A stretch of DNA of 64,000 nt from Cohnella laeviribosi DSM 21336 (GCF_000378425.1 NZ_KB899815.1:63002-127001), one strand, 5' to 3'. Positions 8,399 to 51,192 are shown, counted from the stretch's first letter. Numbers and translations are program-made. Notes: generated by a model from the letters alone, not told the origin.

Positions 8399-8545
8399 TG
8401 AAGACCAACCCTTTCCGTCTTATTGCAGATGCCCACAGTATAAGGCTTCCGCAATCGCCGGACATGACCCCAAAGGGCTAATCCCCGGCCAAAATGTGTC
8501 CATATTAAGGCAATGCCGTCCATGCGTGCCAATGCGCCATGCCTC

Positions 8546-9244: not shown

Positions 9245-10083
9245 CGTTTTTTTGTCCCCTCCTTGCTGAGCTCGAAGACGGTGCGGTCTCCCCGGCGCTC
9301 CGCCTTAAACGTCCAGCCCATCTTGCGGGCGCGTTCCCGCACCATGCGCAGGCCGAAGCGTCCCGGCGCCTGCAGCGGATCGCCGGCAAACCCGACACCG
9401 TCATCCTCGACCCGGCAGCGAAAGCCTCCCCCTTCGATCGTCTCTCCGATCACCGTCACGCGCTGCGCCTTCGCGTGCTTGCGGACGTTGATCAGCGCCT
9501 CCCGCAGACAGGCGTGCAGCTCGACTTTTTCCTTGCCGGACAAGCTGCCGTCGGGTATGCTCCAACGAAACTCCGCCTCGGCGTCGAGAATGCCGGCCGT
9601 CTCCCCGAGAAGCTCCCGCAGCGGAAGCACCCACGCGGCATCTTCTGCCGAGGGCGGCATCCGCAAATTGGCGATCGCCTGCCGCACATCCTCATGCACG
9701 GCGCGAACCGTCTCGCGCAGCTGTCCGGCCAGTTCGCGAACCGGCTCCCGGTCGGCGACCCGGTCCAGCTGATCCAGCTTGACCGCCAGCAGAAACAGCG
9801 ACTGCGCGATGCCGTCGTGCAGCTGTCCCGCAAGCTGCTCCCGCTCCTGCAGCGCCGCCTTCATGGCCTTTTCGCGGTTCAGCTCGCTTTGCGATTGCTC
9901 GAGCCGGTGAAACAATCCGCGCACAAGCGTAAGCGTGACGGCGAGCACGATAAACGGAGCCAGCAGATTGCCGAGCTCCATCGACAGGTACGGCAGCAAA
10001 AACGCGTGGCGCACATATTCCCACAGCCCGATCGTCAGCGTGGGGATCCACAAGATGAGCCATTTGATCCGCTTGTCGCGCAT
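9241..10083 (-). CDS. Histidine kinase, HisKA_3/NarX-like type
   Basis: Protein of 280 residues with two N-terminal transmembrane helices (about 8-25 and 38-58) and almost no outside loop, so it probably senses within or near the membrane. The H-box QLHDGIAQS puts the phosphorylated histidine at His89. The ATPase domain has the G1 motif EDDGVGF and FGLRMVRERA. A strong AAGGAGG site precedes the ATG. It is 48 bp behind the CopC-CopD fusion gene and coupled to the response regulator, which suggests it reports on copper or on the state of that membrane protein. Confidence 0.9.
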   Translation of the reverse strand: MRDKRIKWLILWIPTLTIGLWEYVRHAFLLPYLSMELGNLLAPFIVLAVTLTLVRGLFHRLEQSQSELNREKAMKAALQEREQLAGQLHDGIAQSLFLLAVKLDQLDRVADREPVRELAGQLRETVRAVHEDVRQAIANLRMPPSAEDAAWVLPLRELLGETAGILDAEAEFRWSIPDGSLSGKEKVELHACLREALINVRKHAKAQRVTVIGETIEGGGFRCRVEDDGVGFAGDPLQAPGRFGLRMVRERARKMGWTFKAERRGDRTVFELSKEGTKKR

Positions 10084-10131
10084 GCCGTTCTCCTCCTTCC
10101 CGCCTGCTGCCCGCCCCGGCCTGTCACCGGA

Positions 10132-11796: not shown

Positions 11797-11998
11797 GAAC
11801 CGTAATCCCTCCTTAAGGAGATATGCCTCATTCCGTACCGTCAAGGCACTTCCATCGTACCCGAACCGTTCTCTCCGTTCAACCTTCCCTCCGGCAGCGG
11901 TTTCGCGCAGGCGGACGGACCCATGACCCGACAAAGCGGCCTTGACAGCGGGCGGAAGCCGCGAACGCTCCGGGCCCGCCGCCGTGCGCTCACGCTCC

Positions 11999-12460
11999 CT
12001 AATCGCGGCGCCTGCGGCGGCAAACGTCCGGCCAAAAGTCGGCCGAAGCGAACCTAAGCCCGCGCGAATCCGCCCATACGTATGCCCATCCCGACACTTC
12101 CGGCCGTTCGGCATCGGACACCCAGACCCGCTCGTAATCGTTGGGCTCCTCGATGCCGTGGAACTCCTCGTACGCGTCGAGTTCGGCCAAAGCTTCCCTT
12201 CGGATCTCGTACCACAATCCCTTCACGTTCCCTTTTTCCTTCGTTTCCCCCAGCAACAAAGCGGGGTACGCCCCGGCATCGACCAAGCGTCCCCGCACCC
12301 GGCCCGGTACCGGCGCGGTAAGCAAATAAGGCTCGATCAGCTTGAAGCCCTCAAAATCCGGCAGCAGCGTTCCGTAGACAAACAGCCGGACAGAAGATCC
12401 GCGCGTTCCCAGTGTTTCCGGCCGTTTCATCGCCGACACCTTCCTTTTCAAGCGTAACAT
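11999..12460 (-). CDS. Gamma-glutamylcyclotransferase-like protein (AIG2/GGCT fold)
   Basis: Protein of 153 residues, typical for the family. VYGTLL near residue 29 is the substrate-loop motif, and LDAYEEFHGIE carries the conserved acidic residue used in catalysis. Members cyclise gamma-glutamyl compounds to 5-oxoproline, or act on related amines. A strong AAAGGAGG site 9 nt before the ATG at 12460 supports this start, though an inner ATG at 12430 also has a site. The very Arg-rich C-terminus is unusual. It is transcribed toward CopC-CopD with about 200 bp between, with no evident functional link. Confidence 0.8.
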   Translation of the reverse strand: MLRLKRKVSAMKRPETLGTRGSSVRLFVYGTLLPDFEGFKLIEPYLLTAPVPGRVRGRLVDAGAYPALLLGETKEKGNVKGLWYEIRREALAELDAYEEFHGIEEPNDYERVWVSDAERPEVSGWAYVWADSRGLRFASADFWPDVCRRRRRD

Positions 12461-14697: not shown

Positions 14698-15249
14698 TCA
14701 AGTTCCGGACTTGCTGGCCAGCCACTCGGCTTCCTGAAGCAACTGGCTGACGGATTGGTCCAGCCGGCTTGCCGCTTCTTCCGCAATATCGGCTCCGCCC
14801 TGGTCGTTCCACGTCACCTGGGTATCGAGCACGAACACGCCGGTCAGAATGTTGCGCGCGCCAAGCACCGAAAACACCGGCTTCATCGCGAAGTCGATCG
14901 ACAGCAGATGCGCGATCGTGCCGCCGACGGCGATCGGGAGAACGACCTTGTTTTCCAGCCCCTTTTGCGGCAGCAGATCGAGATAAGCTTTCAAAATGCC
15001 GGTAAACGAGGCTTTGTACACCGGCGTCGCGACGATCACCGCATCGGCTTCCGCGACCTTTTGGTTGGCGGAAACGATCGCTTCGCTGTCAAATTTAGCG
15101 TGCAGCAAATCTTCGGCGGGCAGATCGCGCACATGCACGACCGAAAGCGAGTTCCCCGACGCTTCGATTTGCTTTCCGATGCGGTCCACGATTGCATGAA
15201 GTCTCGACTTTTGGGAAGGGCTGCCGACAATAACGACGATTTTGGCCAC
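14698..15249 (-). CDS. NADPH-dependent FMN reductase, SsuE/MsuE type
   Basis: Protein of 183 residues with a flavodoxin-like fold. GSPSQKSR near residue 9 is the FMN phosphate loop, and TPVYKASFTGILKAYLDLLP is a signature segment of SsuE-type reductases. These enzymes supply reduced FMN to two-component monooxygenases. No monooxygenase is adjacent, but HpaB-fold proteins lie 7-11 kb away on the same strand, so this could be their reductase. It appears to be a single gene. Its upstream 468 bp region contains repeated TAAACTAAA-type motifs shared with the LacI gene. Confidence 0.85.
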   Translation of the reverse strand: MAKIVVIVGSPSQKSRLHAIVDRIGKQIEASGNSLSVVHVRDLPAEDLLHAKFDSEAIVSANQKVAEADAVIVATPVYKASFTGILKAYLDLLPQKGLENKVVLPIAVGGTIAHLLSIDFAMKPVFSVLGARNILTGVFVLDTQVTWNDQGGADIAEEAASRLDQSVSQLLQEAEWLASKSGT

Positions 15250-15717: not shown

Positions 15718-16797
15718 ATGAAAATGGAAGATATCGCTAGGTTGGCCCAGGTTTCCAAATCGGCCGTCTCCCTTGCCCTGAGCGGAAAGCCCGGAATCGG
15801 GAACGAGACGAGAGAGCGCATCTTGCGCATTGCCCGGGAAATGGGCTATTCGGTCAAGCCGCGCGCTTCTTCCGCAACGGAAAAGTCCGCAAAATCGCTC
15901 GTATTTCTTGTCGTCACCAACTTGGGGTTCGTTGCCGAAGCGTATTATCAGCAGCCCTTTTTCCGGGAACTGATTCACTTTATCGAAGAGCGCTGCCGCT
16001 CCAAAGGCTATTCGCTCATTTTCTCGACCGTGAACATGGAGTTTTTCGAAAGGGACGTGCGCGCCGTAGCAGAGGACCATCGCGGCAGCGGAGTCATCTT
16101 GCTCGGCACCAACCTAAGCCGCGATCACATCGCCGAGATCGCGGCGCAGCTGCCGCAACTTGTCGTGCTGGATACGTGCTTCGATACGCTGCCGGTGCAT
16201 TTTATCGGCATCAACAACGCGATGGGCGCTTATCAGGCCGGTTCGCATCTGTGCGACATCGGACACCGGGATATCGGCTATGTCGCTTCCAACGTGCGGA
16301 TTCATAACTTTGAGGAACGCAGGCTGGGCTTTCAAACCGCTCTGCGGGAACGAAACCTGGAGATCGCCCCGAGCCGGACGTTTTCCGTCGAACCGACCAT
16401 CCTCTCGTCGCAGGATTCGATGCGCCGGCAGCTTGAGGCTTGCCTCAGGACGGAAGGAGGACTGCCGACCGCGCTCTTCTGCGAGTGCGATTATATTGCG
16501 ATCAGTGCCATGAAGACTTTGTCCGAGCTGGGCTACCGGGTGCCCGAAGACATCTCGGTGATCGGGTTCGACAACATTACGGAATCCGTCATCGTCTCGC
16601 CGGAGCTGACGACGATCCATGTCGAAAAGGAGAAAATGGCCCAGCTCGCCGTGGACCTCCTGACGGAACCGGACGACCGCAGCAGCGGCGCCCGCATCAA
16701 AATCCGCGTCGACACCCGTTTCGTCGAGCGGCATTCCACCGGCGCGCCGGGGGTGTCTGCCGCCGAAGCGGACGCGGGTTCCCTTGAGAAGAAATAG
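15718..16797 (+). CDS. LacI-family transcriptional regulator
   Basis: Protein of 359 residues. The N-terminal HTH (MEDIARLAQVSKSAVSLAL) and hinge helix (about 1-55) are followed by a periplasmic-binding-protein-like effector domain ending with DISVIGFDN and LTTIHVEK. GGAGAATAAATT precedes the ATG. No sugar genes are directly behind it; it is convergent with the operon ending at 16898 and divergent from the SsuE-like gene, so its targets may be itself and that gene. The effector is unknown. Confidence 0.9.
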   Translation: MKMEDIARLAQVSKSAVSLALSGKPGIGNETRERILRIAREMGYSVKPRASSATEKSAKSLVFLVVTNLGFVAEAYYQQPFFRELIHFIEERCRSKGYSLIFSTVNMEFFERDVRAVAEDHRGSGVILLGTNLSRDHIAEIAAQLPQLVVLDTCFDTLPVHFIGINNAMGAYQAGSHLCDIGHRDIGYVASNVRIHNFEERRLGFQTALRERNLEIAPSRTFSVEPTILSSQDSMRRQLEACLRTEGGLPTALFCECDYIAISAMKTLSELGYRVPEDISVIGFDNITESVIVSPELTTIHVEKEKMAQLAVDLLTEPDDRSSGARIKIRVDTRFVERHSTGAPGVSAAEADAGSLEKK

Positions 16798-16897: not shown

Positions 16898-17914
16898 TCA
16901 GGTCTGCGGATCGGGCAGAAAATCCGATACCGCATACGTCTCTTTCCTGCCTTTCAAACGAACGAGCGTGTCGACAACGTTTTGCTCCTCCTTGGCGATG
17001 CTCTCCAACAATGGAGCGATGCCGAACAGCTTGCGCTCGAATACCGTCAGCCATTCGATATGCTCCACCTCCGTGCGCGCGCTGAGCCATTCGGCGGCGC
17101 CGTGCACGTCGCTTCCGAACCAATCCTCCTGCCGGAGAATGGCGTCAAGCGCGGCGTCCAGCACCTCCTCGCGCTCCCGGTAATAGCGGGCATTCGCCAA
17201 ATAGACGTCGCGGGTGGCGACCAGTCCGGTTCCGTCTGCCACGATTCGAACACCGGACGATTGCAAACGGCTCAGGACCGGTTCGGCGACGGCCCAAGCA
17301 TCGGCCTTTCGTTCGGCAAACGACCGCTCCATCGCGGACGGCGCAACCGGCGCCAGCTTCATATCCGCAAGCGGCAGGCCGGCGCGATCGGCCATTTGCA
17401 TGAGGAGCAGATGCTCGTTGGTGTAACGCGGGTAAGCGATCTTCTTCCCTTTCAAATCGGAAACATTCAAAATGTCCGATTCCAGCGGAACGACCACCGC
17501 ATAAGCGGCCGGATTCGACGGTTCGGCCGCCAAATAGACGACCGGGTCTCCTTCCTTGAGCAAAAAAGCCGGAACCGCATCGCCCGTCGCCGCCAGATCG
17601 ATCCGGCCTTCGCGGAGGGCGGTTAACGCTTCCGCTTCGTCCGCAAACGCATGCCACTCCGGCGTGACGGACAAGTCCGCGAGCCGGCCGGACAGCTCCC
17701 CCTTTTCCCGCAGGACGGTCATGACCGCATTCGGCTCCGCGTATCCGATCCGGAGCTTGCCCGGGTCGATCGGCGCCGGAACCGCCGCGGAGTTCGTTCC
17801 CCCGGCCGCGAAGCCGCAGCCCGCGCACAGCATCGACAGAGCCATCAGCACGACCGGCACCGCAAGGCCCCGCCGGCGGCGCATCCCGCGGCGCGCTTCC
17901 GGCCCGTCAGGCAT
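16898..17914 (-). CDS. ABC transporter binding lipoprotein (SsuA/NrtT-like), second copy in operon
   Basis: Protein of 338 residues with an Arg-rich N-terminus and a lipobox near MLCAGC. The remainder is a two-lobe solute-binding protein of the NMT1/SsuA group (LRIGYAEPNAVMTVLREKGEL, DLKGKKIAYPRYTNEHLLL). It overlaps the permease gene by 8 bp. It differs strongly from the other binding protein at 18734-19795, so one operon may serve two ligands, or one of them may be a sensor or helper. It is the last gene before the terminator. Confidence 0.82.
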   Translation of the reverse strand: MPDGPEARRGMRRRRGLAVPVVLMALSMLCAGCGFAAGGTNSAAVPAPIDPGKLRIGYAEPNAVMTVLREKGELSGRLADLSVTPEWHAFADEAEALTALREGRIDLAATGDAVPAFLLKEGDPVVYLAAEPSNPAAYAVVVPLESDILNVSDLKGKKIAYPRYTNEHLLLMQMADRAGLPLADMKLAPVAPSAMERSFAERKADAWAVAEPVLSRLQSSGVRIVADGTGLVATRDVYLANARYYREREEVLDAALDAILRQEDWFGSDVHGAAEWLSARTEVEHIEWLTVFERKLFGIAPLLESIAKEEQNVVDTLVRLKGRKETYAVSDFLPDPQT

Positions 17915-18689
17915 TCACGGACAGCCCTTTGCGCCAGCGGGTGAACCGCGCCTCGATCAGCGCCAGAATATAGTTAAGCAGCAAACCGACGAAGGCAAGC
18001 AGGATGATGCCGGCATACATATCCGGTATCTGGAACGTTTCCTGGGAATTCAAAATGTAAAACCCGAGCCCGGCGGATGAGCCGATCATTTCGGCGGCGA
18101 CGAGCGCCGTGATGCAGTAGGCGCCGCCCAGACGGATGCCGGTAAAGATGCTGGGCGAAGCGGCCGGCAGCACAACGCGGAAAAAAATGTACGTCTGCGA
18201 TGCGGCCATGGACCGCGCGGAATCGATCAGCAGCTTGTCGACATGCTTGACCCCGCTGACCGTGTTCAACAGAATCGGCCAGAACGACGCCCAGAAAATA
18301 ATCGCCGTCTTGGACGGTTCGCCGATGCCGAGAAACAGAATGAACACCGGAAACAGCGCGAACGCGGAAATTTGGCGGAACAGTTGCAGCAGCGGATCGA
18401 CAATGGCCTCAAAGCGCTTGAACCAGCCGAGCAACAGCCCGATCAGCGTCCCCGCCGCAATCGCCAGCAGCAAGCCCGACAGCGAGCGCTGCAAACTTTT
18501 CGTCAAATGCACCCATAAATCGCCCGTCGACAACAGCCTGCCGATCGATACGATTACCTGGGACGGCGGGCTCAAATAAGCCGGGTTGACGATACCCAGC
18601 CGGGGCAACAGCTCCCAGACGACGATGAATGCCGCAATGGCAAGTCCGCGATCCGTTATGTTCGTGAACAAGCGATACCCGTTTTTCAT
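17907..18689 (-). CDS. ABC transporter permease, SsuC/TauC type
   Basis: About 260 residues with six transmembrane helices. The EAA-like loop around SARSMAASQTYIFFRVVLPAASPSIFTGIRLG is the ATPase contact site typical of nitrate/sulfonate/taurine permeases. The ATG at 18689 is chosen because GGGAGAGAGG lies 7 nt before it; an ATG 8 codons earlier has no good site. It works with the ATPase at 24173-25093 and the binding proteins on either side. Confidence 0.88.
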   Translation of the reverse strand: MKNGYRLFTNITDRGLAIAAFIVVWELLPRLGIVNPAYLSPPSQVIVSIGRLLSTGDLWVHLTKSLQRSLSGLLLAIAAGTLIGLLLGWFKRFEAIVDPLLQLFRQISAFALFPVFILFLGIGEPSKTAIIFWASFWPILLNTVSGVKHVDKLLIDSARSMAASQTYIFFRVVLPAASPSIFTGIRLGGAYCITALVAAEMIGSSAGLGFYILNSQETFQIPDMYAGIILLAFVGLLLNYILALIEARFTRWRKGLSVNA

Positions 18690-18733
18690 GGACGGCCTCT
18701 CTCCCGTTGTCATGATGGCTTCGCGCCTGCGGC

Positions 18734-19795
18734 TTAAGCATCCGCACCGGCGGTTTGGTCCGGGGACGCTTGACCGGAAGCGAACGGATTGAATTCGTTC
18801 GTGTATACGTCCTTGACGTTGACTTTGCCTTTTGGAATTTTGCCTTCCTGCTCCAAAATGTCGATGTAATACTGGATCGGCGGCTCGGTAATGACGAGAT
18901 TTTCCACGTAAGCGAAGCGGTCGATATATTTGACATCCATGTTCAGCCGCTTGGCAATGATCTTCCGGGCTTCCTCCGGATTCTCGTTGACCCAGTTGGC
19001 CGTCTTGGCGATCGCCGTTACGAAATCTTTAACCGCCTGCGGATGCTCCCGCGCGAACTTGCCGTTGACGCTGTAAGGCGCCATGCCGCCAAGCCCGCCG
19101 TCCAGATCGTAGTCGCTCCACAGCTTGACGAGCTTGTCGTTGTGCTCGGCTTTGCCCGAAAACGGGGCGTGGATGATCGCCAGATCGATGCCGCCCTGCT
19201 CCAGCGTCTGCTCCTGCTTGTCGTCGGGGACGACGAGAAAATTTATTTTGCTGACGTCGACGCCCTGCTCGCGGAACCACTTCTTGGAGACAAACTCGGC
19301 GCACGCTCCGAAGCTGTTGAAGCCGATCGTCTTGCCTTCCAGATCCTTCGGCGTCTTCACGCTGCCGTCGTTGCGGGCGAAATATTTCATATGCGGCGCC
19401 TCTTCCAGCGTCTTGCCGCCCGCCGAGATGACCTTGATATCCGCGCCGCTGGCGATCGCCGAAATCACAAGCGGCACCATGCGCGTCCCGAAATCGAGGT
19501 CTCCCGTGCCGACGAGCGGGATGATCTGCGGAGCGGCCACCTTCCCCACATATTTCGGCCGCGTCGACGTGCCTTCGAAATACCCCAGCTCATCCGCCAG
19601 ATAGACCAGATCAAATCCGGGATTGTCCGGGTACTTGAATTCGACAACCTCCCGGTCTCCGTTATTGGAGCCCGGCGCATCGTCCGCGCCCGCCTCCTTG
19701 CCGGCGCCGCCGCAGCCGGACAGCGCAAGCGCGCCGACGAGAAGCGCGGCCAACGCGATGACCTGCATGCGTAACCGGGACTTCGATCCCTTCAT
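18734..19795 (-). CDS. ABC transporter binding lipoprotein, SsuA/NrtA-like
   Basis: Protein of 353 residues with signal and lipobox LALSGCGG, an acidic linker (about 25-48), then an SsuA-like domain (GFDLVYLADELGYFEG, VGTGDLDFGTRMVPLV, LEGKTIGFNSFGACAEF). This family carries alkanesulfonates, nitrate, taurine, pyrimidine precursors or aromatic acids, so the ligand is not fixed by family alone. It sits between the TlpA gene (23 bp) and the permease gene (44 bp). Confidence 0.88.
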   Translation of the reverse strand: MKGSKSRLRMQVIALAALLVGALALSGCGGAGKEAGADDAPGSNNGDREVVEFKYPDNPGFDLVYLADELGYFEGTSTRPKYVGKVAAPQIIPLVGTGDLDFGTRMVPLVISAIASGADIKVISAGGKTLEEAPHMKYFARNDGSVKTPKDLEGKTIGFNSFGACAEFVSKKWFREQGVDVSKINFLVVPDDKQEQTLEQGGIDLAIIHAPFSGKAEHNDKLVKLWSDYDLDGGLGGMAPYSVNGKFAREHPQAVKDFVTAIAKTANWVNENPEEARKIIAKRLNMDVKYIDRFAYVENLVITEPPIQYYIDILEQEGKIPKGKVNVKDVYTNEFNPFASGQASPDQTAGADA

Positions 19796-19818
19796 GGTTC
19801 AGCTCTCTCCTTTCGCGA

Positions 19819-20394
19819 TTACGAATCAACCTTTCCCTTTTCCCCGTAAAAAACGTGCTCCAGCCGCTTCCGGTCGGTCTGGCCGACCAGGGTCTCGCGC
19901 AAAACGCCGCTTTTGTCGAATACGAGCGAGGTCGGGTAAGCGGCCACCTGCAATCGCTTCGCGGCCGAACCGGTCTCGTCAAGCAGAACGGAAACCTCGC
20001 TTCCGAAACCTTGCGCGAATTCGGCCACCTCTTCCAGGCCGGTTTCGGTAAACGTCAAATTGACGGCCAACACGGCAACATCCGGATGCGCGGCGGCGAA
20101 GGCGGCCAGCTCGGGCATCTCCGCCTTGCACGGCGGGCACCAGCTCGCCCAGAAGTTGACCAGCACCGGCCTGCCCCGGTAATCGGACAGCTTGGCGAGT
20201 CCTCCTTCCAGCCGCTCGAGCGCGAAGTTCTCGGCTTCGGCTTCTTGCCCAGCAGCTTGCGGACCGGACCTGCCGAAATGCATGTAAAGCCCTAAGCCGA
20301 GCAAAACCAGCAGCACGATCACCGCGGCTGCGTTGCGCTTCGTCTCTCCTTGCGAAGCCGCGTCATCCAACAACGCCCGCAGACGCCTTTCCAT
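19819..20394 (-). CDS. TlpA/ResA-like membrane-anchored thioredoxin
   Basis: Protein of 191 residues with an uncleaved N-terminal transmembrane helix (about 22-40) and a thioredoxin fold outside the membrane. The active site is WCPPC (Cys86, Cys89), and the cis-proline loop is AAYPTSLVF. TlpA/ResA proteins reduce disulfides on the outer face, often for cytochrome c or copper-centre maturation. The gene follows the YcnI gene by only 3 bp, which favours a role in keeping thiols or copper sites of the co-encoded proteins reduced. Confidence 0.88.
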   Translation of the reverse strand: MERRLRALLDDAASQGETKRNAAAVIVLLVLLGLGLYMHFGRSGPQAAGQEAEAENFALERLEGGLAKLSDYRGRPVLVNFWASWCPPCKAEMPELAAFAAAHPDVAVLAVNLTFTETGLEEVAEFAQGFGSEVSVLLDETGSAAKRLQVAAYPTSLVFDKSGVLRETLVGQTDRKRLEHVFYGEKGKVDS

Positions 20395-20397
20395 GCT

Positions 20398-21051
20398 TCA
20401 GACGGTCCGCTTGCCGCGCCGCAGCGACACCGAAACCGCAACGAGGCCGGCCGCAAGCGCGAGCAACGCGACATAGAAAGAAGGGGAACGGACGCTTTGC
20501 GAAGACAGCCAACCGGCTCGATCGGCATCCTCCGCTTCCTTGCCGGCGGGGGATGCGGCATGGTGATCGCCCGAGCCCGTTCCGTCCGCGGCAAGCACCT
20601 TCGTCACGGGAGCCGGTTCGTCCGTGCCCGCTCCGCCGACCCATTCGACAACCGAGCCGTCCGCATACGTCTGGTAGGCTTTCCACGCGAGCGAAGAGCC
20701 GGCGTCCTCGTCAACCTGCCCCTGAAGGCGAAATTCTCCGAATTCGCCTTCCTTAAGCCCTCCGTCTACGGCCGTCCACGTAATTCCGGTGTAAGATCCG
20801 TCCCCGTTCGCCGCGAATGCGTAGGTCCATCCCGGCACCGGCTGCACCCGGCTGACGGTTATCCCTTCGGGGAAACGGACTTCCAGCTTGACCGTCGCCG
20901 CCTCCTTTTCGGTCGGAACCCGAACCGTAAAGACTTCGTAAGCTCCCTGTTTCGTTTCCGCCGGCAGCACGGTCACATGCGCGGAGGCGGTACCTGCGAA
21001 CGCCAGCGAAGCCGCCAGCGTAAGAACAGCGATTTTATGCGGAATCCCCAT
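20398..21051 (-). CDS. YcnI-family (DUF1775) copper-binding membrane-anchored protein, copy 2
   Basis: Protein of 217 residues from the ATG at 21051, which has GGAGAGGAGAAAGG upstream. The signal peptide ends TASA, exposing His25 as the mature N-terminus (HVTVLP), the Cu(II) ligand in characterised YcnI. It shares the PGW and SVVEWVGG motifs with copy 1 and ends in one membrane helix and RRGKRTV. It lies between CopC-CopD copy 2 and TlpA within the transporter operon, repeating the YcnI plus CopC-CopD pairing at 7.8-11.8 kb. Confidence 0.9.
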   Translation of the reverse strand: MGIPHKIAVLTLAASLAFAGTASAHVTVLPAETKQGAYEVFTVRVPTEKEAATVKLEVRFPEGITVSRVQPVPGWTYAFAANGDGSYTGITWTAVDGGLKEGEFGEFRLQGQVDEDAGSSLAWKAYQTYADGSVVEWVGGAGTDEPAPVTKVLAADGTGSGDHHAASPAGKEAEDADRAGWLSSQSVRSPSFYVALLALAAGLVAVSVSLRRGKRTV

Positions 21052-21091
21052 CGCCTTTCTCCTCTCCTTTCTTCGCTTGCTTAACTTTTCG

Positions 21092-22714
21092 TTATCTTCT
21101 TTCGTTGTAAAAAACTTTTGTCGTGACGTATTCGTTGTCCGAACGGTCCAGCACGCTGACTTCAAGCCTCCACTTTCCGGCGAACGCCAGGTATTTGCCC
21201 TCCGCGCTGTAATGATGATCGTAAAGCCGCAGCGGACTGCCGTTCGTCTCCACCTGCGAAAGCGGCACCTCGATCGGAGCGATGTCCGGGTTGTCCAGAT
21301 AAGCCAGTTTAAGCGTTACGCGCTTCAGCCCCCCGTCCCGGCCGGTCCCGCCCACCGATACGTTGAATTGGTTGACGGCCCCCGGCTCGTTGGGCGTCAC
21401 GATCGCGGCGATATGGACGCCGTTCACATTTTCGTGCCAAAACAGCGGACCGGTCGCGGCAAGCGGATTAAGAAATGTGAATATTCCGGCAATTGAAACA
21501 ATAAGAGCATGCAGACCGATGTCCAGCGACAGCCAACCGCCGAATCCGGACCATCTTTGCGCGCGAACCCGCCGGCGCAGCCCATAGCCTGCCGCAACGA
21601 CAAGCAGAACGGCCGCCGATTTGGCCAGCAAAAGCTTGCCCCACCATGTCAACGTCAAGTGGCGGAAGCCGTCCGAATACAGGTACGCTGCGGCCAGTCC
21701 GCTGACGGTCAGCAGCGCGACGGCCGCCAACGCCGCCTGGGACAGGGCGGGAAGATGAGGAAGAATGCGTTCCCGCTCCCGTTTGCGCCAGTGAAGGGCG
21801 ACGGCGAGCAGAACGCCCGTCCAGACGCTCGCCGCGAACAGATGAAGCACGTCGAGCGCAAAGGTTGCGGCCGGCACGGCATACCCCATCGCATGGCCGT
21901 TAAGCCCTTTGGCGGCAAACATGAACGCGATCCAGACCGCGTCCGGCAGCCTCCGTTTTCCCGCGACGGCAAAGCCGACCGCGACTGCCGAGAACGCCAG
22001 CAAATAGGACAAGCCGATGGACGTTCCGAGCAGCAGGGAGACTTGTTCCGCCTTCCCGAAGCCGGTTCCCAGACGGAGAAGGTCTTTCCAGGCGATAAGC
22101 GCCAGAGCGGCCGCATGCAGTCCCAGCAGCAGGCGGAAGACGAACCGGAAGCGGGCGGGAGAACCGTCTCCAATCCCGCGGACGAGAACGCGGATTCCGG
22201 CCCAGCCGGTGACCGCAAGCAAGCTGGCATAATAGAAAATCCGGATCAGCCAGTAGGGAACGTTCTTGCCCAGTTCGTGCTCTTCATGAAGCTTGGAAGC
22301 CGAAGTATAGCCGATTTTCGCTTCCGTACGGCTGCCCACCGTGAACACGTAGGACGCTTGCACCGGGTGGCCGTCCGCCGATACGATCCGGTACGAGACG
22401 GTGTAGCTTCCGTCCGGGAGCTTGGGCAGGGCGAGCCGGACGATTTTCCGGTTCCGGTCCATCTCCGCAGGCCGGTCCGCAACCGGCAGTCCCTTTTCGT
22501 CATAAACGCCGATTCGGTACAGCCGGTTTTCCAGCCGCTCGTTAAATGTCAGAACGACCTGATCGGGCGGTTCCGCAAGCCTGCCGTCCGGCGCGGGAGA
22601 AGCCCGAAGCAGCGTCGAATGGGCGGCGGCGCCCGGAACCGAAACCCATAAAAAAACAACGAGGAGAACGAATACCCGGACAAAAACGCTTAACGCTTCG
22701 GGAACGCTCTTCAT
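21092..22714 (-). CDS. CopC-CopD fusion copper protein (YcnJ type), copy 2
   Basis: Protein of 540 residues. The signal peptide ends GAAA, giving His32 at the mature N-terminus of the CopC domain. SADGHPVQASYVF supplies the other copper ligands. About eight CopD helices follow, then a soluble C-terminal domain of about 130 residues. The ATG overlaps the stop of the HpaB-fold gene in ATGA, a direct sign of translational coupling between a copper protein and a monooxygenase-like enzyme. It resembles copy 1 in length and domain order but is clearly diverged. Confidence 0.88.
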   Translation of the reverse strand: MKSVPEALSVFVRVFVLLVVFLWVSVPGAAAHSTLLRASPAPDGRLAEPPDQVVLTFNERLENRLYRIGVYDEKGLPVADRPAEMDRNRKIVRLALPKLPDGSYTVSYRIVSADGHPVQASYVFTVGSRTEAKIGYTSASKLHEEHELGKNVPYWLIRIFYYASLLAVTGWAGIRVLVRGIGDGSPARFRFVFRLLLGLHAAALALIAWKDLLRLGTGFGKAEQVSLLLGTSIGLSYLLAFSAVAVGFAVAGKRRLPDAVWIAFMFAAKGLNGHAMGYAVPAATFALDVLHLFAASVWTGVLLAVALHWRKRERERILPHLPALSQAALAAVALLTVSGLAAAYLYSDGFRHLTLTWWGKLLLAKSAAVLLVVAAGYGLRRRVRAQRWSGFGGWLSLDIGLHALIVSIAGIFTFLNPLAATGPLFWHENVNGVHIAAIVTPNEPGAVNQFNVSVGGTGRDGGLKRVTLKLAYLDNPDIAPIEVPLSQVETNGSPLRLYDHHYSAEGKYLAFAGKWRLEVSVLDRSDNEYVTTKVFYNERR

Positions 22715-24141
22715 CCGATATGCCGCGCCACCCGGTCCAGCAGCGCCTGCTTGTCGTATTCCGCATATTGCGCCGCGTACGTTCGCGCCGGGTCTCCCGC
22801 ATAGAAGCGTTCATAAAGCTCGTGCCGGGCCCCCAGCCGGCTGCCCGCCAAATCCCAGGCCGTCTTGAGCAGCTTGACTCTCTCCTCGGCGTCGCGGTCG
22901 GCTCCCCGGTAAATGTTGCGCAGCCGGGAACCGAGCGGACCGTGCAGCTCGGCCAGCGTTGACGGCACCTGCAGCATGCCCGCTCCCGACAGCAGCTGCA
23001 AAATCTCGATGGCCCGGGGATAATAACGGTTGCCCAAATTTTTGGCGGTGACCAGCGGCTGAAGCTCGGGCTCCCACACGCCGTCGGGATGAAGCGCGCA
23101 GCGGTGCTCGGCGGACTTCAGCAGCGCTTCGACCGTCTCCAGTTGGAGAAACAGCTCGGCCAGCTTATCCTGAACATGGGAGAACCGGGCGATGCCGATC
23201 GATGCGGCCAGTTCCACGCCGACGGCGGCTACGAACTCCAGCTTGCTTGCCAGCCGGGCAACGTTCTCATGGAGGCTGATCGCGCTCACGAACCGATCCG
23301 AACGGATCTTCCAAATCGCCTCGGGATTGTTCCGGATGAATACCCGATCCCACGGGATCAGCGCATCGTCGAAGACGAGAACGGCGTCCATCTCGTCGTA
23401 GCGCGAGCTAAGCGGGTGATCTTCGGTTCGTTCGGACGCGAACGGCTCGCGGCAAATCAAATGCACGCCCGGATGGCTGGCGGGGATGGCGAACATCACG
23501 GCGTAGTGCTTTTCCTCGGCTGTCTTCGGGCTGTGCGGAGAGACCATAATTTCATCCATATACGGCCCGCCGGTCGCGATCATTTTGGCGCCCCTGACCA
23601 CGATCCCTTCTTCGGTTTCCTTGACGACCCGCAGCGCCGTATACAAATCGCCGAGCTCGGATGCGAGCTTCGTCCGGTCGATTTGCGGATCGTGCCCCGC
23701 CGCCGTAAGCAGCAGGTCGCGGTCCCTCAAGTCGGCGTAATAACGGGCGATTTTGTCCGGAAAATGAGGTTCTTCTTGCCGGATCAGATTACTCCGGATA
23801 TGCCAGCCCGTCAATTGGGCGCGATAAAATCCCGCCACCCGGCTCATGACCCCGAACGTCGCATCCGACCAGACGCGGAAGGAACGTCCTCTTCGGAAAA
23901 TATCGTCCCGTTCTCTCGGAACGAGAAAAGCCAGATTGGCCTTTGCCCCCGTTTCCGTCGTAAAGGTCAACTCGGAGCTGCGGACCGGATCGTCCTGCAA
24001 ATCCAACAGCGCCGCCACCGAGCGGACCGTTCCGGCAAAGGCCGGATGGCGGGCAAGATCGCGAACGACTTCACCGTCAAGCCAAACGTTACGCTGCTGC
24101 GCGAGTCTCTGCAAATAACGGCTGCCCGACGTTGCGCTCAA
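22711..24141 (-). CDS. HpaB-family flavin-dependent monooxygenase-like protein
   Basis: Protein of 476 residues, the usual length for the 4-hydroxyphenylacetate 3-hydroxylase oxygenase group (acyl-CoA dehydrogenase fold). The order is an N-terminal helical domain, a central beta-barrel (VKETEEGIVVRGAKMIATGGPYMDEI), and a C-terminal four-helix domain with LVTAKNLGNRYYPRAIEILQLLSG. The C-terminal ERFYAGDPARTY motif is typical of the family. Members use reduced FAD or FMN from a separate reductase to hydroxylate phenols or halophenols; the substrate here is unknown. No reductase is in the operon; the SsuE-like protein at 14698-15249 is a candidate. Confidence 0.82.
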   Translation of the reverse strand: MSATSGSRYLQRLAQQRNVWLDGEVVRDLARHPAFAGTVRSVAALLDLQDDPVRSSELTFTTETGAKANLAFLVPRERDDIFRRGRSFRVWSDATFGVMSRVAGFYRAQLTGWHIRSNLIRQEEPHFPDKIARYYADLRDRDLLLTAAGHDPQIDRTKLASELGDLYTALRVVKETEEGIVVRGAKMIATGGPYMDEIMVSPHSPKTAEEKHYAVMFAIPASHPGVHLICREPFASERTEDHPLSSRYDEMDAVLVFDDALIPWDRVFIRNNPEAIWKIRSDRFVSAISLHENVARLASKLEFVAAVGVELAASIGIARFSHVQDKLAELFLQLETVEALLKSAEHRCALHPDGVWEPELQPLVTAKNLGNRYYPRAIEILQLLSGAGMLQVPSTLAELHGPLGSRLRNIYRGADRDAEERVKLLKTAWDLAGSRLGARHELYERFYAGDPARTYAAQYAEYDKQALLDRVARHIG

Positions 24142-24172
24142 GTCGCTTCACCTCTTATGCTCCCTATGTTCA

Positions 24173-25093
24173 CTATCCGGTAATCCGTTCCGGCACGGCG
24201 CCGGCCGGCTCCGCCGCTGCCGCCGGCTTGGATGTCTCCGAGGCCTGCGCTTCTGTCGCCGCCGTTCCCGCCGCCGAGGAAGCGGAGGCGCTAAGGCGCA
24301 GCGTTTGCTCCACTTCGTCCTTCAGCACCGTCCAGGCCCGCTGCCGCAGCTTGACGAAAGCTTCGGAATTGCGGATCTCGGCGGAACGGGGCCGCTCCAA
24401 CGGAACATCGATGATCTCTTTGACGCGGCCGGGCCTTGCGGTCATCACCGCCACCCGATCGGCAAGGAAGATCGCTTCGTCCAGGCTGTGCGTAATAAAA
24501 ACGATCGTCACCTTGCGGGCTTCCCAAATCCGCAGAAGCTCCGACTGCAAAATCTCCCGCGTCTGCGCATCGAGCGCCGCGAACGGCTCATCCATGAGCA
24601 GGACGTCGGGTTCGTAGGCGAGCGCCCGGGCGATCGCCACCCGCTGCCGCATCCCGCCGGAAAGCTCGTGCGGATACCGGTGCTCGAACGATTGCAGGCC
24701 GACAAGCTGGATATAGTCGAGCGCGATCCGTCTGCGCTCCTTTTTGCGGACGCCGCGGATGTGCAGGCCGACCTCGACGTTTTGAAGCACGGTTTTCCAC
24801 GGAAACAGAGCATAACCTTGAAAAACGACGCCGTGCTTGGGATTGACCCCGTTGACCGGCTCCCCGCCGATCGCCAGCTTCCCGCCCGATTGGCGCGCCA
24901 AGCCGGCCAGGATGTTCAAGAAAGTGGACTTGCCGCAGCCGCTCGGGCCGAGAATGGCCAGAAATTCTCCCTCCCGGACGGAAAGGGAAAATTCCTTCAG
25001 CACGGACACGGTCTCCTTCCGCCCCGATTCGTTTCTTACCGTATAGCGCATCTCCAGGTTTTCGGCCGTTATTTTGTCCGTCAATTCGCTCAC
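24173..25093 (-). CDS. ABC transporter ATPase, SsuB/TauB type
   Basis: Protein of 306 residues. Walker A is GPSGCGKST, the Q-loop is VFQGYALFPW, the ABC signature is LSGGMRQR, Walker B is VLLMDEP and the H-loop is ITHSLDEA. A C-terminal Ala/Ser/Thr/Glu-rich extension of about 45 residues is not needed for ATPase function and looks disordered. The start overlaps the stop of the upstream gene by 4 bp. It powers the permease at 17907-18689, from which it is separated by the HpaB, Cop, YcnI and TlpA genes, an unusual split. Confidence 0.92.
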   Translation of the reverse strand: MSELTDKITAENLEMRYTVRNESGRKETVSVLKEFSLSVREGEFLAILGPSGCGKSTFLNILAGLARQSGGKLAIGGEPVNGVNPKHGVVFQGYALFPWKTVLQNVEVGLHIRGVRKKERRRIALDYIQLVGLQSFEHRYPHELSGGMRQRVAIARALAYEPDVLLMDEPFAALDAQTREILQSELLRIWEARKVTIVFITHSLDEAIFLADRVAVMTARPGRVKEIIDVPLERPRSAEIRNSEAFVKLRQRAWTVLKDEVEQTLRLSASASSAAGTAATEAQASETSKPAAAAEPAGAVPERITG

Positions 25094-26286
25094 CTCCCTT
25101 GCGGTTCGTACGCCTGAGCGTCGATCGCCCGGCGAAAAGCCCGGTAGCGTTCGCGAAGCTGATGCTGCGGGTAATGCCGGTACAGCTCTTTCGAGCGCTC
25201 GATCGGATCCCCGAAGGCGAAGCGCTCGTGCTGCCTGCGCCTTGCGGCCTCTTCATCGCCCGCAAGGCGCCAGGCCAAACGGCGAATGTCGTGCTCGCGG
25301 GATTTCGCACGGTGAAATTCCGATCGTTCGGAAGGCGCGGCGAAATCCGGCGCGTCCAGCAGTTCCGTCCCTCCGATCCGGTGAATGAGCTCGGACGCGC
25401 GGCGGTAACCGTCGCCGCCGACCCGCTTGGCGGCCGCGACCGGCACCGGCGCAGGCAGCAGCGCCCCCGCCGGACTCCGTTCGGCTTCCAGCTCGGCGGC
25501 GTAAAGCAGCGCTTTAAGCGACTCGAGCTCCTGAATCAAAAGGCCGAGCTCGTATTGAATGTCGGGGTCCTTGCTCAAGCCCGTTTGATCAGCCAGGGCG
25601 AATGCGGTCCCCGTCAACAGCTCGAGGGCGTCCAACTGCCTGGCCGCCCACTGGTAGCCCGCCAGCGCCTGCACGAACGGGTGCGAGCGGATCAGCTCGG
25701 CTCCGGCCGCGTTGCGGTCCAGCAAAATTCGCTCCTGCGGAATGAACACCCGGTCGTAAAGGACGGTCGTCCACGACGAAGTTTCCGGGTGGAGCCTGAT
25801 CTTAAGCCCCTCGCTGCCGGTCGGCACCAGCGCAAGCGTCGTGGGCGCTTCGTCCCCGTATTCCCGGATCCAAACGAGCAGTTGCCCGGCATGGGCGGCG
25901 TCGGCGGCAAACGTCTGGCTGCCGCTTACCGCGATCCCCTCCGAATTCCGCTCGACGACGGGAATCGTTCCGTTTGCCGAACGAAACGGCCGGATCCGCT
26001 GCAGCGAAGTCGTCATCAGGCCGAGCTCCTTGCGGCTTCGCTCGTAAATCAGCTGAGCGGACAGCGGAAAACGGGCGATATCCCGAAACGGCTGCGTCTC
26101 TTTGTGCTCGAACCAGCCGGCGAGCAAGGCGTGCGCATAATCCGCCAGCCCTTCGCCGAAAGCCGACTGTCCGCCGTGAAGGCCGAACAGCCCGAGCCGC
26201 CTTTCCTTCAGTTCCTCCAATGTGTGCGGCAACGAATACGCCCGCTCGATCCAATACCGATCGGATTTCTCGCGTCGTTCAGTCAT
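25090..26286 (-). CDS. Divergent HpaB-fold (acyl-CoA dehydrogenase-like) protein, first gene of operon
   Basis: Protein of 398 residues, about 80 shorter than the other HpaB-fold protein. Shared marks are the central barrel segment (GIAVSGSQTFAADAAHAGQLLVW), a FIPQERILLDRN segment matching the partner's LIPWDRVFIRNN, and a C-terminal ERFAFGDPIERS tail. It is strongly diverged elsewhere, so it may be a second subunit, or an oxygenase for a different step, or may have lost flavin chemistry. It is the first gene after the promoter and leader hairpin, and overlaps the ATPase gene by 4 bp. Confidence 0.65.
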   Translation of the reverse strand: MTERREKSDRYWIERAYSLPHTLEELKERRLGLFGLHGGQSAFGEGLADYAHALLAGWFEHKETQPFRDIARFPLSAQLIYERSRKELGLMTTSLQRIRPFRSANGTIPVVERNSEGIAVSGSQTFAADAAHAGQLLVWIREYGDEAPTTLALVPTGSEGLKIRLHPETSSWTTVLYDRVFIPQERILLDRNAAGAELIRSHPFVQALAGYQWAARQLDALELLTGTAFALADQTGLSKDPDIQYELGLLIQELESLKALLYAAELEAERSPAGALLPAPVPVAAAKRVGGDGYRRASELIHRIGGTELLDAPDFAAPSERSEFHRAKSREHDIRRLAWRLAGDEEAARRRQHERFAFGDPIERSKELYRHYPQHQLRERYRAFRRAIDAQAYEPQGR

Positions 26287-26341
26287 GATGCTTCCCCCTT
26301 CGCTCCACGTCCGGTTTCATCGTCATCGGCTCCCAACAAAA

Positions 26342-26384
26342 AGAGGTTTTCGCAACGGCGCCGGATGCCGTCGCAAAAACCTCT
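26342..26384 (-). terminator. Leader terminator-like hairpin before the nine-gene operon
   Basis: 18-bp arms (26342-26359 with 26367-26384, 16 matches) around a 7-nt loop, followed on the minus strand by TTTTTG. It lies after the promoter at 26439-26467 and about 55 nt before the first start codon, so it can act as an attenuator. It is also the only terminator-like structure behind glcF. Just before it is CTAGT-2-ACTAG (26383-26394). Confidence 0.75.
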
Positions 26385-26438
26385 AGTCAACTAGTCGGCC
26401 TATTAACTTCACTTTTCCAAGCGGTTTAGTATGATTGA

Positions 26439-26467
26439 ATCATATACCCCAAAAGCTGTGCAGTCAA
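26439..26467 (-). promoter_or_regulatory. Sigma-A promoter of the SsuABC-HpaB-Cop operon
   Basis: TTGACT (26462-26467) and TATGAT (26439-26444) are separated by exactly 17 bp on the minus strand, in the gap between the glcF stop and the first operon gene. The predicted transcript start near 26432 gives a leader of about 145 nt containing the hairpin at 26342-26384. Confidence 0.8.
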
Positions 26468-26511: not shown

Positions 26512-27840
26512 TCAGTCCCCTTTCTTCATCCGCTCGTGCAAAAAGTCGGCAATATGCGCCACCTTCATGCCGCCGCCGTCGCCGTAACGCTCGACGCCGA
26601 GCTTCATCTGCAGCAGGCAGCCCGGATTGCTGGTCAGCAAATAATGGGCCCGCGTCGCGTTTGCGTGCTCCATTTTGTGCTCCAGAATTTGGTCCGCCAT
26701 CTCCGGCTGGGTCAGGTTGTAAATGCCGGCCGAGCCGCAGCAGCGGTCCGCCTCGTGCATCTCGACGAATTCCGCGCCGGACACCCGGCGCAAGAGCTGG
26801 CGGGGCGCATCGGACGAACGCATGACGTTCCGCAAATGGCAGGAGTCCTGATAGGTGATGCGCACCGGGCCGCCCGGCGCCGCGGGATCGCCGAAAGAAG
26901 GAAGCCGGCCAAGCCGGAAAAGGATGTCGCTGACGTCCTTGACCCGTCCGGCGAACCAGGCCGCATCCTCCCGGCAGGCCGGATCATCGTGCAGCAAATG
27001 ATCGTATTCGGCCAGCAGCGCTCCGCAGCCGCCGGCATTGGATACGATGTAATCGACGCCGGCTTCCTTGAACGCCCGGACGTTGCGACGGGCGAGCTCG
27101 CGCGCGTCGTCCAGCTCGCCGCTGTGGGCGTGAAGGGCGCCGCAGCAGTTCTGCGTTCGCGGGATGACGACCTCGAATCCCGCTTCCGTCAGCAGTTCCA
27201 CCGTATGCACGTTCGTCTCCGCGAACAGCGTATCCATCAGGCAGCCGCGGAACAGGCCGACGGTGGCGATTCGCTCGCCTTTGGCCGGGTGGCGCCCGCC
27301 GATCCGTTCGATGACGCCTTGCCCGGAAGCTTCCGGCAGTATTTTTTCCATATCGGCCAACTGCTTCGGCAGCAGCTTCAGGATCCCCGTCGTTCGCGCA
27401 ACCCGCTGCAGCCCGGATTTCTGGTAGAAGCGCAACGCTTTGCCGGCCAGCCGCATCCGGCCCTGCTTCGGGAACAGCTCCTTGAAGACGAGACGCCGCA
27501 CCCCTTTAACCCATAAGCGGTGGCTCCTCGTATGGTCCTCGATCGCGTCGCGCGCCTGCTCCAGCAGCCGCCCGTACTTCACGTCGGCCGGACAGGCCGG
27601 CTCGCACGCCCGGCAGCCGAGGCAATGATACATCTGCTCCTCAAACGCTTCGTCCGGGTCCATCAGGCCGTCGGCCACCGCTTTCATCAGCGCGATCCGC
27701 CCCCGGGGCGATTCCGCTTCGATTCCCGTCTCCCGGAACGTGGGACAGGCGGGCAAGCAGAAGCCGCACCGCATGCAGTTCGTGAGCTGGTCTTCGTCCA
27801 GCGTGATCTTCAGCTTCGCCGCAAGCTGCGGATTAGCCAT
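26512..27840 (-). CDS. glcF: Glycolate oxidase iron-sulfur subunit (GlcF-like)
   Basis: Protein of 442 residues. Two ferredoxin-type [4Fe-4S] motifs, NCMRCGFCLPACP and HCLGCRACEPACP, lie in the first 90 residues. Two CCG-type domains follow, with NCCGALHAHSG and RCCGSAG, which bind a further cluster in related electron carriers. It passes electrons from the flavoprotein GlcD to the respiratory chain. It overlaps glcD by 8 bp. A GlcE subunit is absent, as is common in Bacillales; lactate or another 2-hydroxyacid is an alternative substrate. Confidence 0.9.
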   Translation of the reverse strand: MANPQLAAKLKITLDEDQLTNCMRCGFCLPACPTFRETGIEAESPRGRIALMKAVADGLMDPDEAFEEQMYHCLGCRACEPACPADVKYGRLLEQARDAIEDHTRSHRLWVKGVRRLVFKELFPKQGRMRLAGKALRFYQKSGLQRVARTTGILKLLPKQLADMEKILPEASGQGVIERIGGRHPAKGERIATVGLFRGCLMDTLFAETNVHTVELLTEAGFEVVIPRTQNCCGALHAHSGELDDARELARRNVRAFKEAGVDYIVSNAGGCGALLAEYDHLLHDDPACREDAAWFAGRVKDVSDILFRLGRLPSFGDPAAPGGPVRITYQDSCHLRNVMRSSDAPRQLLRRVSGAEFVEMHEADRCCGSAGIYNLTQPEMADQILEHKMEHANATRAHYLLTSNPGCLLQMKLGVERYGDGGGMKVAHIADFLHERMKKGD

Positions 27841-29278
27841 GATGGATCACCACCCTTTTGCGCGTTTGCTTGGCGAACATTTTGCCGGGGTTGAGCAGAT
27901 TGTGCGGGTCGAAAGCCGCCTTGATCCCCTTCATGACCTCGATGCCCGCGGCCCCGACCTTCCATTCGAGGAACGGCGCTTTGACGATCCCGACGCCATG
28001 CTCGCCGGTGATCGTGCCGCCGAGCGCGATGGCCGCTTCGAATATTTCCGCAAACGCCTCCTCAACGCGATGCACCTCGTCAAGATCCCGGGCGTCGGTC
28101 GTCGCCGTCGGATGCAGGTTGCCGTCGCCGGCGTGGCCGAACGTGCAGATGTTGACGCCGTATTTGCGGGCGATCCGGTTGATTTCGAGCACCATGTCGG
28201 CGATCTTCGAGCGCGGCACCGTGGCGTCCTCGAGTATCGTCGTCGGCCGCAGCCGGGCGAGCGCCGTGAAGGCGCTGCGCCGCGCCGCTAGCAGCTTGTT
28301 CGCCTCCTCCGGCGTCGCCGCGACGCTGATCCGGGCCGCGTTCTCCCCTCTGCAAATTTCCTCGATCCGGGCGATGTCGCGTTCCACCGTTTCCGGCTCG
28401 CCGTCCTGCTCGATCAGCAAAATCGCTTCCATATCCAGCGGCAGGCCGAGCTTGGCGAAATCGTCCACGACCCGGATCGTCGGATTGTCGAGAAACTCCA
28501 GCGTGGCCGGGATGATGCGGTTTTCGATAATTTTGGATACGGTCCGAGCCGCGTCGTAAAGATCGGCGTACATGGCGAGCATCGTCTTTTTCGCTTTCGG
28601 CGGCGGAATCAGCTTGAGCGTCGCTTCCGTAATGATCGCGAGCGTTCCCTCCGATCCGACGAGCAGCTTGGTCAGATCGTAGCCGGCCACGTCCTTCATC
28701 AGCTTGCCGCCGGTCCGGATAATGTCGCCGCTGGCCAGCACCGCTTCCAGTCCGATCACGTAGTCCTTGGTCGTGCCGTATTTGAGGCCGCGCAAGCCGC
28801 CCGAGTTCTCCGCGATGTTGCCGCCGATCGTGGAGACGGCCATGCTGCTCGGGTCCGGCGGATAAAACAGTCCGAGGCTCTCCACATGGGCGCTGAACTG
28901 CTTCGTATTCAGCCCCGGCTGCACGACGGCCGTCAAGTTCTCGAGGTCGATCTCCAAAATCCGGTTCATGCGGTGCATCACCATGACGACGCCCCCGTTC
29001 ACCGGCACGGTGCCGCCGCACAGATTCGTGCCCGATCCCCTGGTTACAAGCGGTATGCGGTGCTTGTTCAGCACCTTCATGACCGCCGAAACCTGGGCGG
29101 TGTCGCGGGGATACACGACGGCGTCGGGCAGCGCCTGCTGCATGGCGGTCCCGTCATAGGAATGGGTGACAAGCGACTGCGGGTCATCCTTGAAATCGGC
29201 GTCGCCGAGAATGGCGATCAGTTCGCGCTTTGCTTGTTCGGGCAGCAAGCCGGACACTCCCTCTCGATCAAGATTCAT
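27833..29278 (-). CDS. glcD: Glycolate oxidase FAD-linked subunit (GlcD-like)
   Basis: Protein of 481 residues, typical GlcD length. The FAD-binding PCMH domain has LVTRGSGTNLCGGTVP, and the C-terminal FAD-oxidase domain has TFGHAGDGNLHP and the ending FDPHNLLNPGK. It oxidises glycolate (or D-lactate-like 2-hydroxyacids) to the keto acid, handing electrons to GlcF. It is the first gene of a two-gene unit divergent from the GntR regulator, with a palindrome at 29299-29311 in the shared promoter region. Confidence 0.92.
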   Translation of the reverse strand: MNLDREGVSGLLPEQAKRELIAILGDADFKDDPQSLVTHSYDGTAMQQALPDAVVYPRDTAQVSAVMKVLNKHRIPLVTRGSGTNLCGGTVPVNGGVVMVMHRMNRILEIDLENLTAVVQPGLNTKQFSAHVESLGLFYPPDPSSMAVSTIGGNIAENSGGLRGLKYGTTKDYVIGLEAVLASGDIIRTGGKLMKDVAGYDLTKLLVGSEGTLAIITEATLKLIPPPKAKKTMLAMYADLYDAARTVSKIIENRIIPATLEFLDNPTIRVVDDFAKLGLPLDMEAILLIEQDGEPETVERDIARIEEICRGENAARISVAATPEEANKLLAARRSAFTALARLRPTTILEDATVPRSKIADMVLEINRIARKYGVNICTFGHAGDGNLHPTATTDARDLDEVHRVEEAFAEIFEAAIALGGTITGEHGVGIVKAPFLEWKVGAAGIEVMKGIKAAFDPHNLLNPGKMFAKQTRKRVVIHHG

Positions 29279-51006: not shown

Positions 51007-51124
51007 CTGCTTCACCTCAACTTTTTGCATCATGCGAAGACGGCTCCGGACGGTATGCGCTCCCGTAACGATGGCGCTTTTTCTCAGCCTGCCGCCAAGC
51101 CCGTCCAGTATCCGTTCCATATAT

Positions 51125-51139
51125 TCGTAAATTTTACAC
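51125..51139 (-). promoter_or_regulatory. Zur-like box before znuCBA
   Basis: TCGTAAATTTTACAC matches 10 of 14 consensus positions and shares CGTAA-N2-TTTAC with the boxes at 48263 and 51753. It lies about 120 bp before the znuC GTG, in the gap after the zur gene. Confidence 0.5.
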
Positions 51140-51192
51140 TTAATAAACAAGCGAACAAATGCGGATTCCGCCGTCCGCATTCGCGCACCGGA

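Follow-up and report, generated by a model that had tools for sequence, protein, structure and literature searches.

Why should genes for copper uptake lie in one operon with a sulfonate-type importer and genes resembling flavin-dependent monooxygenases? The question is raised by nine genes on the minus strand, at positions 16898-26286 of a 64,000-nucleotide window (the whole stretch of DNA analysed here), which lies on contig C8 of the 4.48-Mb genome of Cohnella laeviribosi DSM 21336. A sequence-only reading had proposed that they serve the uptake and oxidation of an organic copper ligand, or of an aromatic or organosulfur compound whose use needs extracytoplasmic copper, and had known of no described pathway joining these parts. 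Our analyses establish that the nine-gene operon is real and conserved, the recurrence of its gene order and of one fixed overlap being beyond chance. Sulfur scavenging is well supported as the function of its core, and the best account, which we hold at about even confidence, is a sulfur-starvation operon that serves to import and oxidise an organosulfur compound of (hetero)aromatic type and has its own Cu(II) import module of the YcnJ/YcnI type. The coupling of the two imports suggests that the sulfur food either arrives copper-bound or creates a need for copper. The operon links copper acquisition to organosulfur use in a soil bacterium and its relatives, and no published operon joining the two was found in the open-access literature.

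Domain and profile searches assigned each of the nine open reading frames to a family, as follows in transcription order.

25090-26286, minus strand: HpaBx, a shortened HpaB-fold protein of 398 amino acids (PF03241, 2e-27; alignment; AlphaFold model)
24173-25093, minus strand: SsuB-type ATP-binding cassette (ABC) ATPase (profile matches; 74-80% identity in relatives)
22711-24141, minus strand: HpaB-family flavin-dependent monooxygenase of 476 amino acids (HpaB_N, PF11794, 4e-86; HpaB, PF03241, 3e-51; PDB 2yyg)
21092-22714, minus strand: CopC-CopD fusion (CopCD), YcnJ-like, of an operon-specific clade (domains, tree, Cu(II) ligands)
20398-21051, minus strand: YcnI (DUF1775; PF07987, 2e-25; PDB 7me6, 4e-29, with alignment)
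19819-20394, minus strand: TlpA/ResA-like thiol-disulfide oxidoreductase, membrane-anchored, with a WCPPC motif (profile matches)
18734-19795, minus strand: substrate-binding protein 1 (SBP1), a lipoprotein of the NMT1/SsuA fold (identity to relatives; model and structural matches)
17907-18713, minus strand: SsuC-type permease (BPD; profile matches)
16898-17914, minus strand: SBP2, a second SsuA-like lipoprotein (NMT1-type; profile matches; 42-49% identity in relatives)

The successive junctions measure -4, 31, -4, 40, 3, 23, 20 and -8 bp, so that two overlaps of 4 bp and one of 8 bp occur within a range of -8 to 40 bp; this confirms the tightly packed gene set and the families named by the sequence-only reading, and transcription of all nine genes as a single unit is likely. 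For YcnI, the ATG at 21051 is a likelier start than the mechanically called TTG at 21165. The domain search recognised no regulator, YcnK included, among the nine genes.

Searching 396 genomes of the Paenibacillaceae with HpaBx recovered the same operon in seven genomes besides that of the window, spread over five genus groups when the latter is included, and an additional locus of the same gene order in Paenibacillus naphthalenovorans brings the total to nine. Named records carrying it are, besides P. naphthalenovorans, Paenibacillus radicis (ex Gao et al.), P. cellulosilyticus, P. kobensis, P. xylaniclasticus, Cohnella thailandensis and strain CAVE-418; several of these duplicate genomes already counted among the 396, and since the sampled genomes are related to each other, the counts do not represent independent events. 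Genes in the fetched loci were called mechanically, and in one locus (L043) HpaBx has no call of its own yet is detected by BLAST. The 4-bp overlap between HpaB and CopC-CopD, seen from the outset in the window, recurs at precisely this length in each of the nine loci. The best-conserved operon protein is SBP1 (76-83% identity overall in the family), SsuC and HpaB reach 79-85% and 71-78% identity to the window's copies, and HpaBx, CopCD, YcnI and SBP2 show lower values (41-61%). Two layouts occur: in six loci AsfAB-like genes lie immediately upstream and TlpA is missing, and in three (the window, genome G290 and P. naphthalenovorans) TlpA is present and AsfAB is not adjacent. A CcdA-type DsbD_TM protein is encoded between YcnI and TlpA in the operon of G290 (L036:6765-7466, minus strand).

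The sulfur-scavenging core is apparent from the company that the importer keeps. Relatives of SBP1 with 63-72% identity over the aligned protein are found in many Proteobacteria and in Peribacillus asahii, where the gene set shared outside the family is SBP1-SsuB-SsuC-SBP2; a search of 398 genomes sampled phylum-wide matched SBP1 only in its own genome. Among 80 importer loci fetched, including those of Paenibacillaceae and 72 from Proteobacteria and Peribacillus, neighbouring genes are NtaA/DszA-like in 29, DszC-like in 24, AsfA-like with a ferredoxin in 19 and SsuD-like in 12. These neighbours, together with the leader RNA described below, support the organosulfur compound among the substrates first proposed. 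The individual importer proteins fall below the NCBIfam cut-offs for SsuA, SsuB and SsuC, and the assignment to an SsuABC-type importer otherwise holds. The asf genes are required for aromatic desulfonation in Pseudomonas putida S-313 (PMC4267179), and AsfA/AsfB have been reported for the second replicon of Cupriavidus metallidurans CH34 (PMC2864759). Our use of the AsfA/AsfB names is an inference from the flavoprotein-ferredoxin pair being the sole such match on that replicon, whose record is unannotated and gave no confirmation of the AsfA name.

The operon resembles the asfRABC/ssu systems of P. putida S-313, Variovorax and Cupriavidus in its SsuABC-type importer, in an SsuE gene nearby and, for six of the nine loci, in the AsfA/AsfB-like genes that immediately precede it. 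It differs from them in having an HpaB-family pair, no neighbouring SsuD and an added CopCD-YcnI(-TlpA) module, and the window copy also lacks adjacent AsfAB. A canonical ssu operon was rejected as an identification, no SsuD being found within the operon. The same genome holds a large sulfur cluster on another contig (L045, G000:C47:1-19000), with another HpaB (45%) and SsuD-like, NtaA-like, DszC/SfnB-like and ABC transporter genes.

A second line of evidence for sulfur control comes from the region upstream of HpaBx, the first gene, where two elements were predicted.

26439-26467, minus strand: promoter-like site TTGACT-17-TATGAT (10/12 consensus matches; predicted)
26334-26408, minus strand: leader element, in which a CTAG-TTGA-CTAG mini-hairpin runs straight into an 18-bp terminator stem and a T run (motif scan, covariance model)

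A similar leader arrangement precedes the first operon gene in relatives. A motif scan for a perfect 4-bp hairpin, then AGR, then a terminator gave 30 matches (one region counted twice) in 694 kb of Bacilli sulfur loci, whereas ordinary copper loci (78 kb), proteobacterial loci (1.44 Mb) and five shuffles yielded no match; because pairing was required by the scan, the full pairing of the mini-hairpin is partly built in, and the variety of its pairs is not. The window copy, which belongs to the training set, scores 40.9 bits with covariance model R1. At E values up to 0.1 the covariance model yields 11-17 copies in each of four genomes, and at 1e-5 it matches 72 of 200 Bacilli genomes, an upper bound because plain terminators may add matches. 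In genomes outside the model training, the genes behind the top copies encode SsuA, a TauC/SsuC-like permease, SsuD, SsuE, a CysP-type sulfate permease, a sulfate SBP and a MetN-like ATPase; the four-genome set adds SfnG, NtaA-type, homocysteine synthase, cystine-type SBP and LysR genes, as well as one copy before an argininosuccinate lyase-like gene, and several copies have no clear gene call behind them. No Rfam family (T-box, SAM, others) matched the leader at gathering score. We propose the leader as a candidate new sulfur-responsive regulatory RNA of Bacilli, putatively an attenuator, and the operon is apparently sulfur-controlled, starting behind an element that also precedes genes for sulfate, sulfonate and cystine. 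The ssu leader of Bacillus subtilis offers a parallel in termination-level control, as far as the title of van der Ploeg (2001; given in PMC10708946) states regulation of the sulfonate genes at initiation and termination. The hairpin-terminator element precedes sulfur genes in distant genomes and so gives a starting point for the study of sulfur control across many Bacilli. Copies occur on contigs C52, C1, C47, C13, C6, C2 and C21 of the window's genome (G000) and in loci L307-L326.

The copper module has a CopCD specific to the operon. CopCD of the operon type, 51-60% identical to that of the window, occurs in eight of the 396 family genomes, exactly the eight operon carriers, and the next match drops to 41% identity, leaving a clear gap. 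The operon genomes also carry ordinary CopCD proteins, 31-36% identical to the operon copy, from which the operon CopCDs are split in the tree with a support of 100/100. Five non-operon CopCD loci examined adjoin YcnI and a response regulator, a kinase or both, and do not lie among sulfur genes. The operon-type protein is thus found nowhere outside the operon and always with the importer in the family, which supports a joint system. The CopC Cu(II) ligands H32, D114 and H116 (mature N-terminal His and Asp-Gly-His) are kept in all nine operon copies, as are the His/Glu/Trp ligands in all operon YcnIs; a C-terminal extension follows CopD in the fusion. In B. subtilis the Cu(II) ligands of YcnJ and YcnI are needed for growth under copper limitation (PMC12362106), and YcnJ has been described as a copper importer (PMC13344008). 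Given these conserved ligands and this precedent, the operon module likely imports copper by homology. It shares with the B. subtilis ycnKJI copper-uptake operon the CopC-CopD fusion, YcnI and the same Cu(II) ligands, and differs in lacking YcnK, in sitting in a sulfur operon and in its CopCD clade, apart from ordinary CopCDs. The window itself contains a second, ordinary CopCD with a sensor kinase, a response regulator and YcnI (7760-12114, minus strand), about 5 kb downstream of the operon end.

What the oxygenase might act on is indicated by its active site and its closest relatives. The window HpaB aligns at full length with the 4-hydroxyphenylacetate 3-monooxygenase HpaB of Thermus thermophilus (PDB 2yyg), sharing its fold, its HpaB_N and HpaB domains and the equivalent of Arg100, and scores 388 bits with TIGR02309, below the equivalog cut-off of 480.2. 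In HpaB, the Arg100-Tyr104-His142 triad includes Tyr104 and His142, which hold the phenol hydroxyl (PMC10537072). Only R101 is kept in the window protein, F105 and A147 replacing Tyr and His; it also differs in its shortened partner HpaBx and its sulfur-gene context. Position 105 is Phe, Ser or Tyr in close HpaB relatives outside the operon, and the His142 position was never His among 36 HpaB sequences compared. HpaBx lacks the catalytic Arg, the His loop and two further stretches in the alignment, has an HpaB-like AlphaFold model (pLDDT, predicted local distance difference test, 81; Foldseek E 1.5e-18) and is probably a non-catalytic partner of HpaB. The pair constitutes a concrete enzyme system with an altered active site, located in sulfur clusters and with testable candidate substrates.

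The HpaBs closest to those of copper operons (64-66% identity) lie in clusters of genomes G355 and G277 together with an ergothionase-like gene (best PDB match E 2.6e-154 vs 2.8e-66 for the next), and are their sisters in the tree (99/97; 88/73 for the copper-operon group itself). The G355 cluster comprises genes for an ABC ATPase, a permease, ergothionase, an AsfA-like protein, a ferredoxin, HpaBx, HpaB and an OpuAC-type binding protein. Both clusters (L040:9553-18732 and L042:10939-15940), which combine ergothionase with HpaBx and HpaB, represent a candidate oxidative route for ergothioneine sulfur. Since its HpaB is sister to ergothionase-adjacent HpaBs, heteroaromatic thiones such as thiourocanate would be good candidate substrates for the operon. 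Its likeness to ergothioneine catabolism (ergothionase, PDB 6s7j) consists in these sister HpaBs and the related HpaBx, with AsfAB-like genes also in the G355 cluster; unlike that system, it has neither ergothionase nor an OpuAC-type transporter. Ergothioneine is known to chelate copper (PMC7653990).

A candidate source of reduced flavin, which may belong to the system, is encoded downstream of the operon in a separate transcription unit.

14698-15249, minus strand: SsuE NADPH-FMN (flavin mononucleotide) reductase (TIGR03567, 226.6 bits vs a cut-off of 164.05)

In the sulfur-starvation account, SBP1 and SBP2 would capture an organosulfur molecule for import by SsuBC, HpaB would oxygenate it with reduced flavin, perhaps from SsuE, and the sulfur would leave as sulfite, aided by AsfAB or luciferase-like monooxygenases encoded elsewhere. 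Were the molecule a copper-binding thione, thiol or sulfonate of (hetero)aromatic type, Cu(II) could be stripped from it outside the membrane by YcnI and the CopC domain, and CopD could import the metal; TlpA, plus CcdA in one relative, may keep the thiol or the copper reduced. That the coupling is due to substrate-bound copper, e.g. as imidazole-2-thiones bind copper, seems plausible to us at somewhat less than even chances. A more specific version is rather unlikely when taken as a whole: joint scavenging in which Cu(II) would be stripped from copper-complexed imidazole-2-thiones or similar ligands (ergothioneine/thiourocanate family), metal and ligand imported by separate routes of one operon, and the ligand desulfurised by the new HpaB-type pair, under an undescribed sulfur-responsive leader RNA.

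Several results weigh against this account. The copper and SsuABC/HpaB genes do stand together in every intact importer locus of the Paenibacillaceae, as a neighbourhood check suggested with the sequence-only reading revealed, and the joint system it proposed holds to that extent. The pairing does not extend further: CopCD with YcnI occurs in seven of the 80 importer loci, all seven from Paenibacillaceae, and copper genes in none of the 72 outside the family. The Peribacillus asahii locus has importer, HpaB, NtaA, AsfA-like and ferredoxin genes and no copper genes. An importer without copper genes outside the family implies that the copper part is an addition to a core devoted to sulfur. Neither AsfAB, SsuD, NtaA nor ergothionase is encoded in the window operon; its genome has an AsfAB-like pair (G000:C6) and an ergothionase cluster (C5), both on other contigs. 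The ligand cannot be read from the SBP1 fold, because this protein resembles binders of many different ligands, with nitrate, bicarbonate, sulfonate, pyrimidine, thiamin and pyrroloquinoline quinone binders scoring nearly alike. A close ergothionase occurs in only three of the eight operon genomes, for which reason ergothioneine was dropped as a certain substrate.

The same observations bear on other explanations. Copper import might be co-expressed for physiological balance, if scavenging released copper-sequestering sulfite, sulfide or thiols and an extra importer protected the respiratory oxidases while sulfur is scarce. YcnJ supports respiration at scarce copper in B. subtilis (PMC13344008) and, outside the family, the importer occurs without the copper genes; however, balance alone would not call for an operon-exclusive CopCD clade with a 4-bp HpaB overlap everywhere, and the genome already has an ordinary CopCD-YcnI cluster equipped with a separate two-component system, so that we consider this explanation possible, if on the whole unlikely. 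TlpA or CcdA next to copper proteins resembles CuA-type assembly sets. Their presence here (CcdA in G290) would fit a copper module that, with TlpA, loads an extracytoplasmic copper enzyme, encoded elsewhere, which pre-processes the sulfur compound before import; this is improbable, as the operon and its conserved neighbourhood contain no recognised copper oxidase and no more than three of the nine loci have TlpA.

The organic copper ligand first suggested could still be the substrate, but the operon does not appear to serve mainly to acquire copper. A chalkophore-type system with that aim, to which an operon with its own copper module and a pair of lipoprotein binding proteins would be suited, is quite improbable when the leader belongs to a sulfur-gene family, the importer is widespread in sulfur clusters without copper genes and the operon has no copper regulator. 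Phenol catabolism by an ordinary HpaB hydroxylase, with copper genes protecting against catechols, draws on the HpaB domain architecture and is very improbable: the residues holding the phenol hydroxyl (PMC10537072) are replaced by Phe and Ala, and the conserved neighbourhood offers a sulfur context and no recognised ring-cleavage genes. The loss of an intact phenol-binding triad weakens the case for phenol oxidation, and the hydroxylase reading was set aside on this ground. As a whole, the initial interpretation is partly supported.

The operon is flanked downstream by a LacI-type gene (15718-16797), tail-to-tail with it, and upstream by GlcF/GlcD-like genes (26512-29278). Elsewhere in the window lie ZnuA-type zinc uptake genes (48375-51180, minus strand; PF01297, ABC-3, ABC ATPase). 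The separate ergothionase cluster of the same genome (L182, G000:C5:190000-205682) includes, as identified by eye or BLAST, urocanate-hydratase-like, DUF917-like, amidohydrolase-like, peptidase-like and OpuAC-type transporter genes. Other Bacilli (L189-L193, from G832, G1038, G815, G1046 and G998) carry paired full-length HpaBs with SsuD-like and transporter genes, and SsuE in several of them, a type of sulfur cluster of which we know no description.

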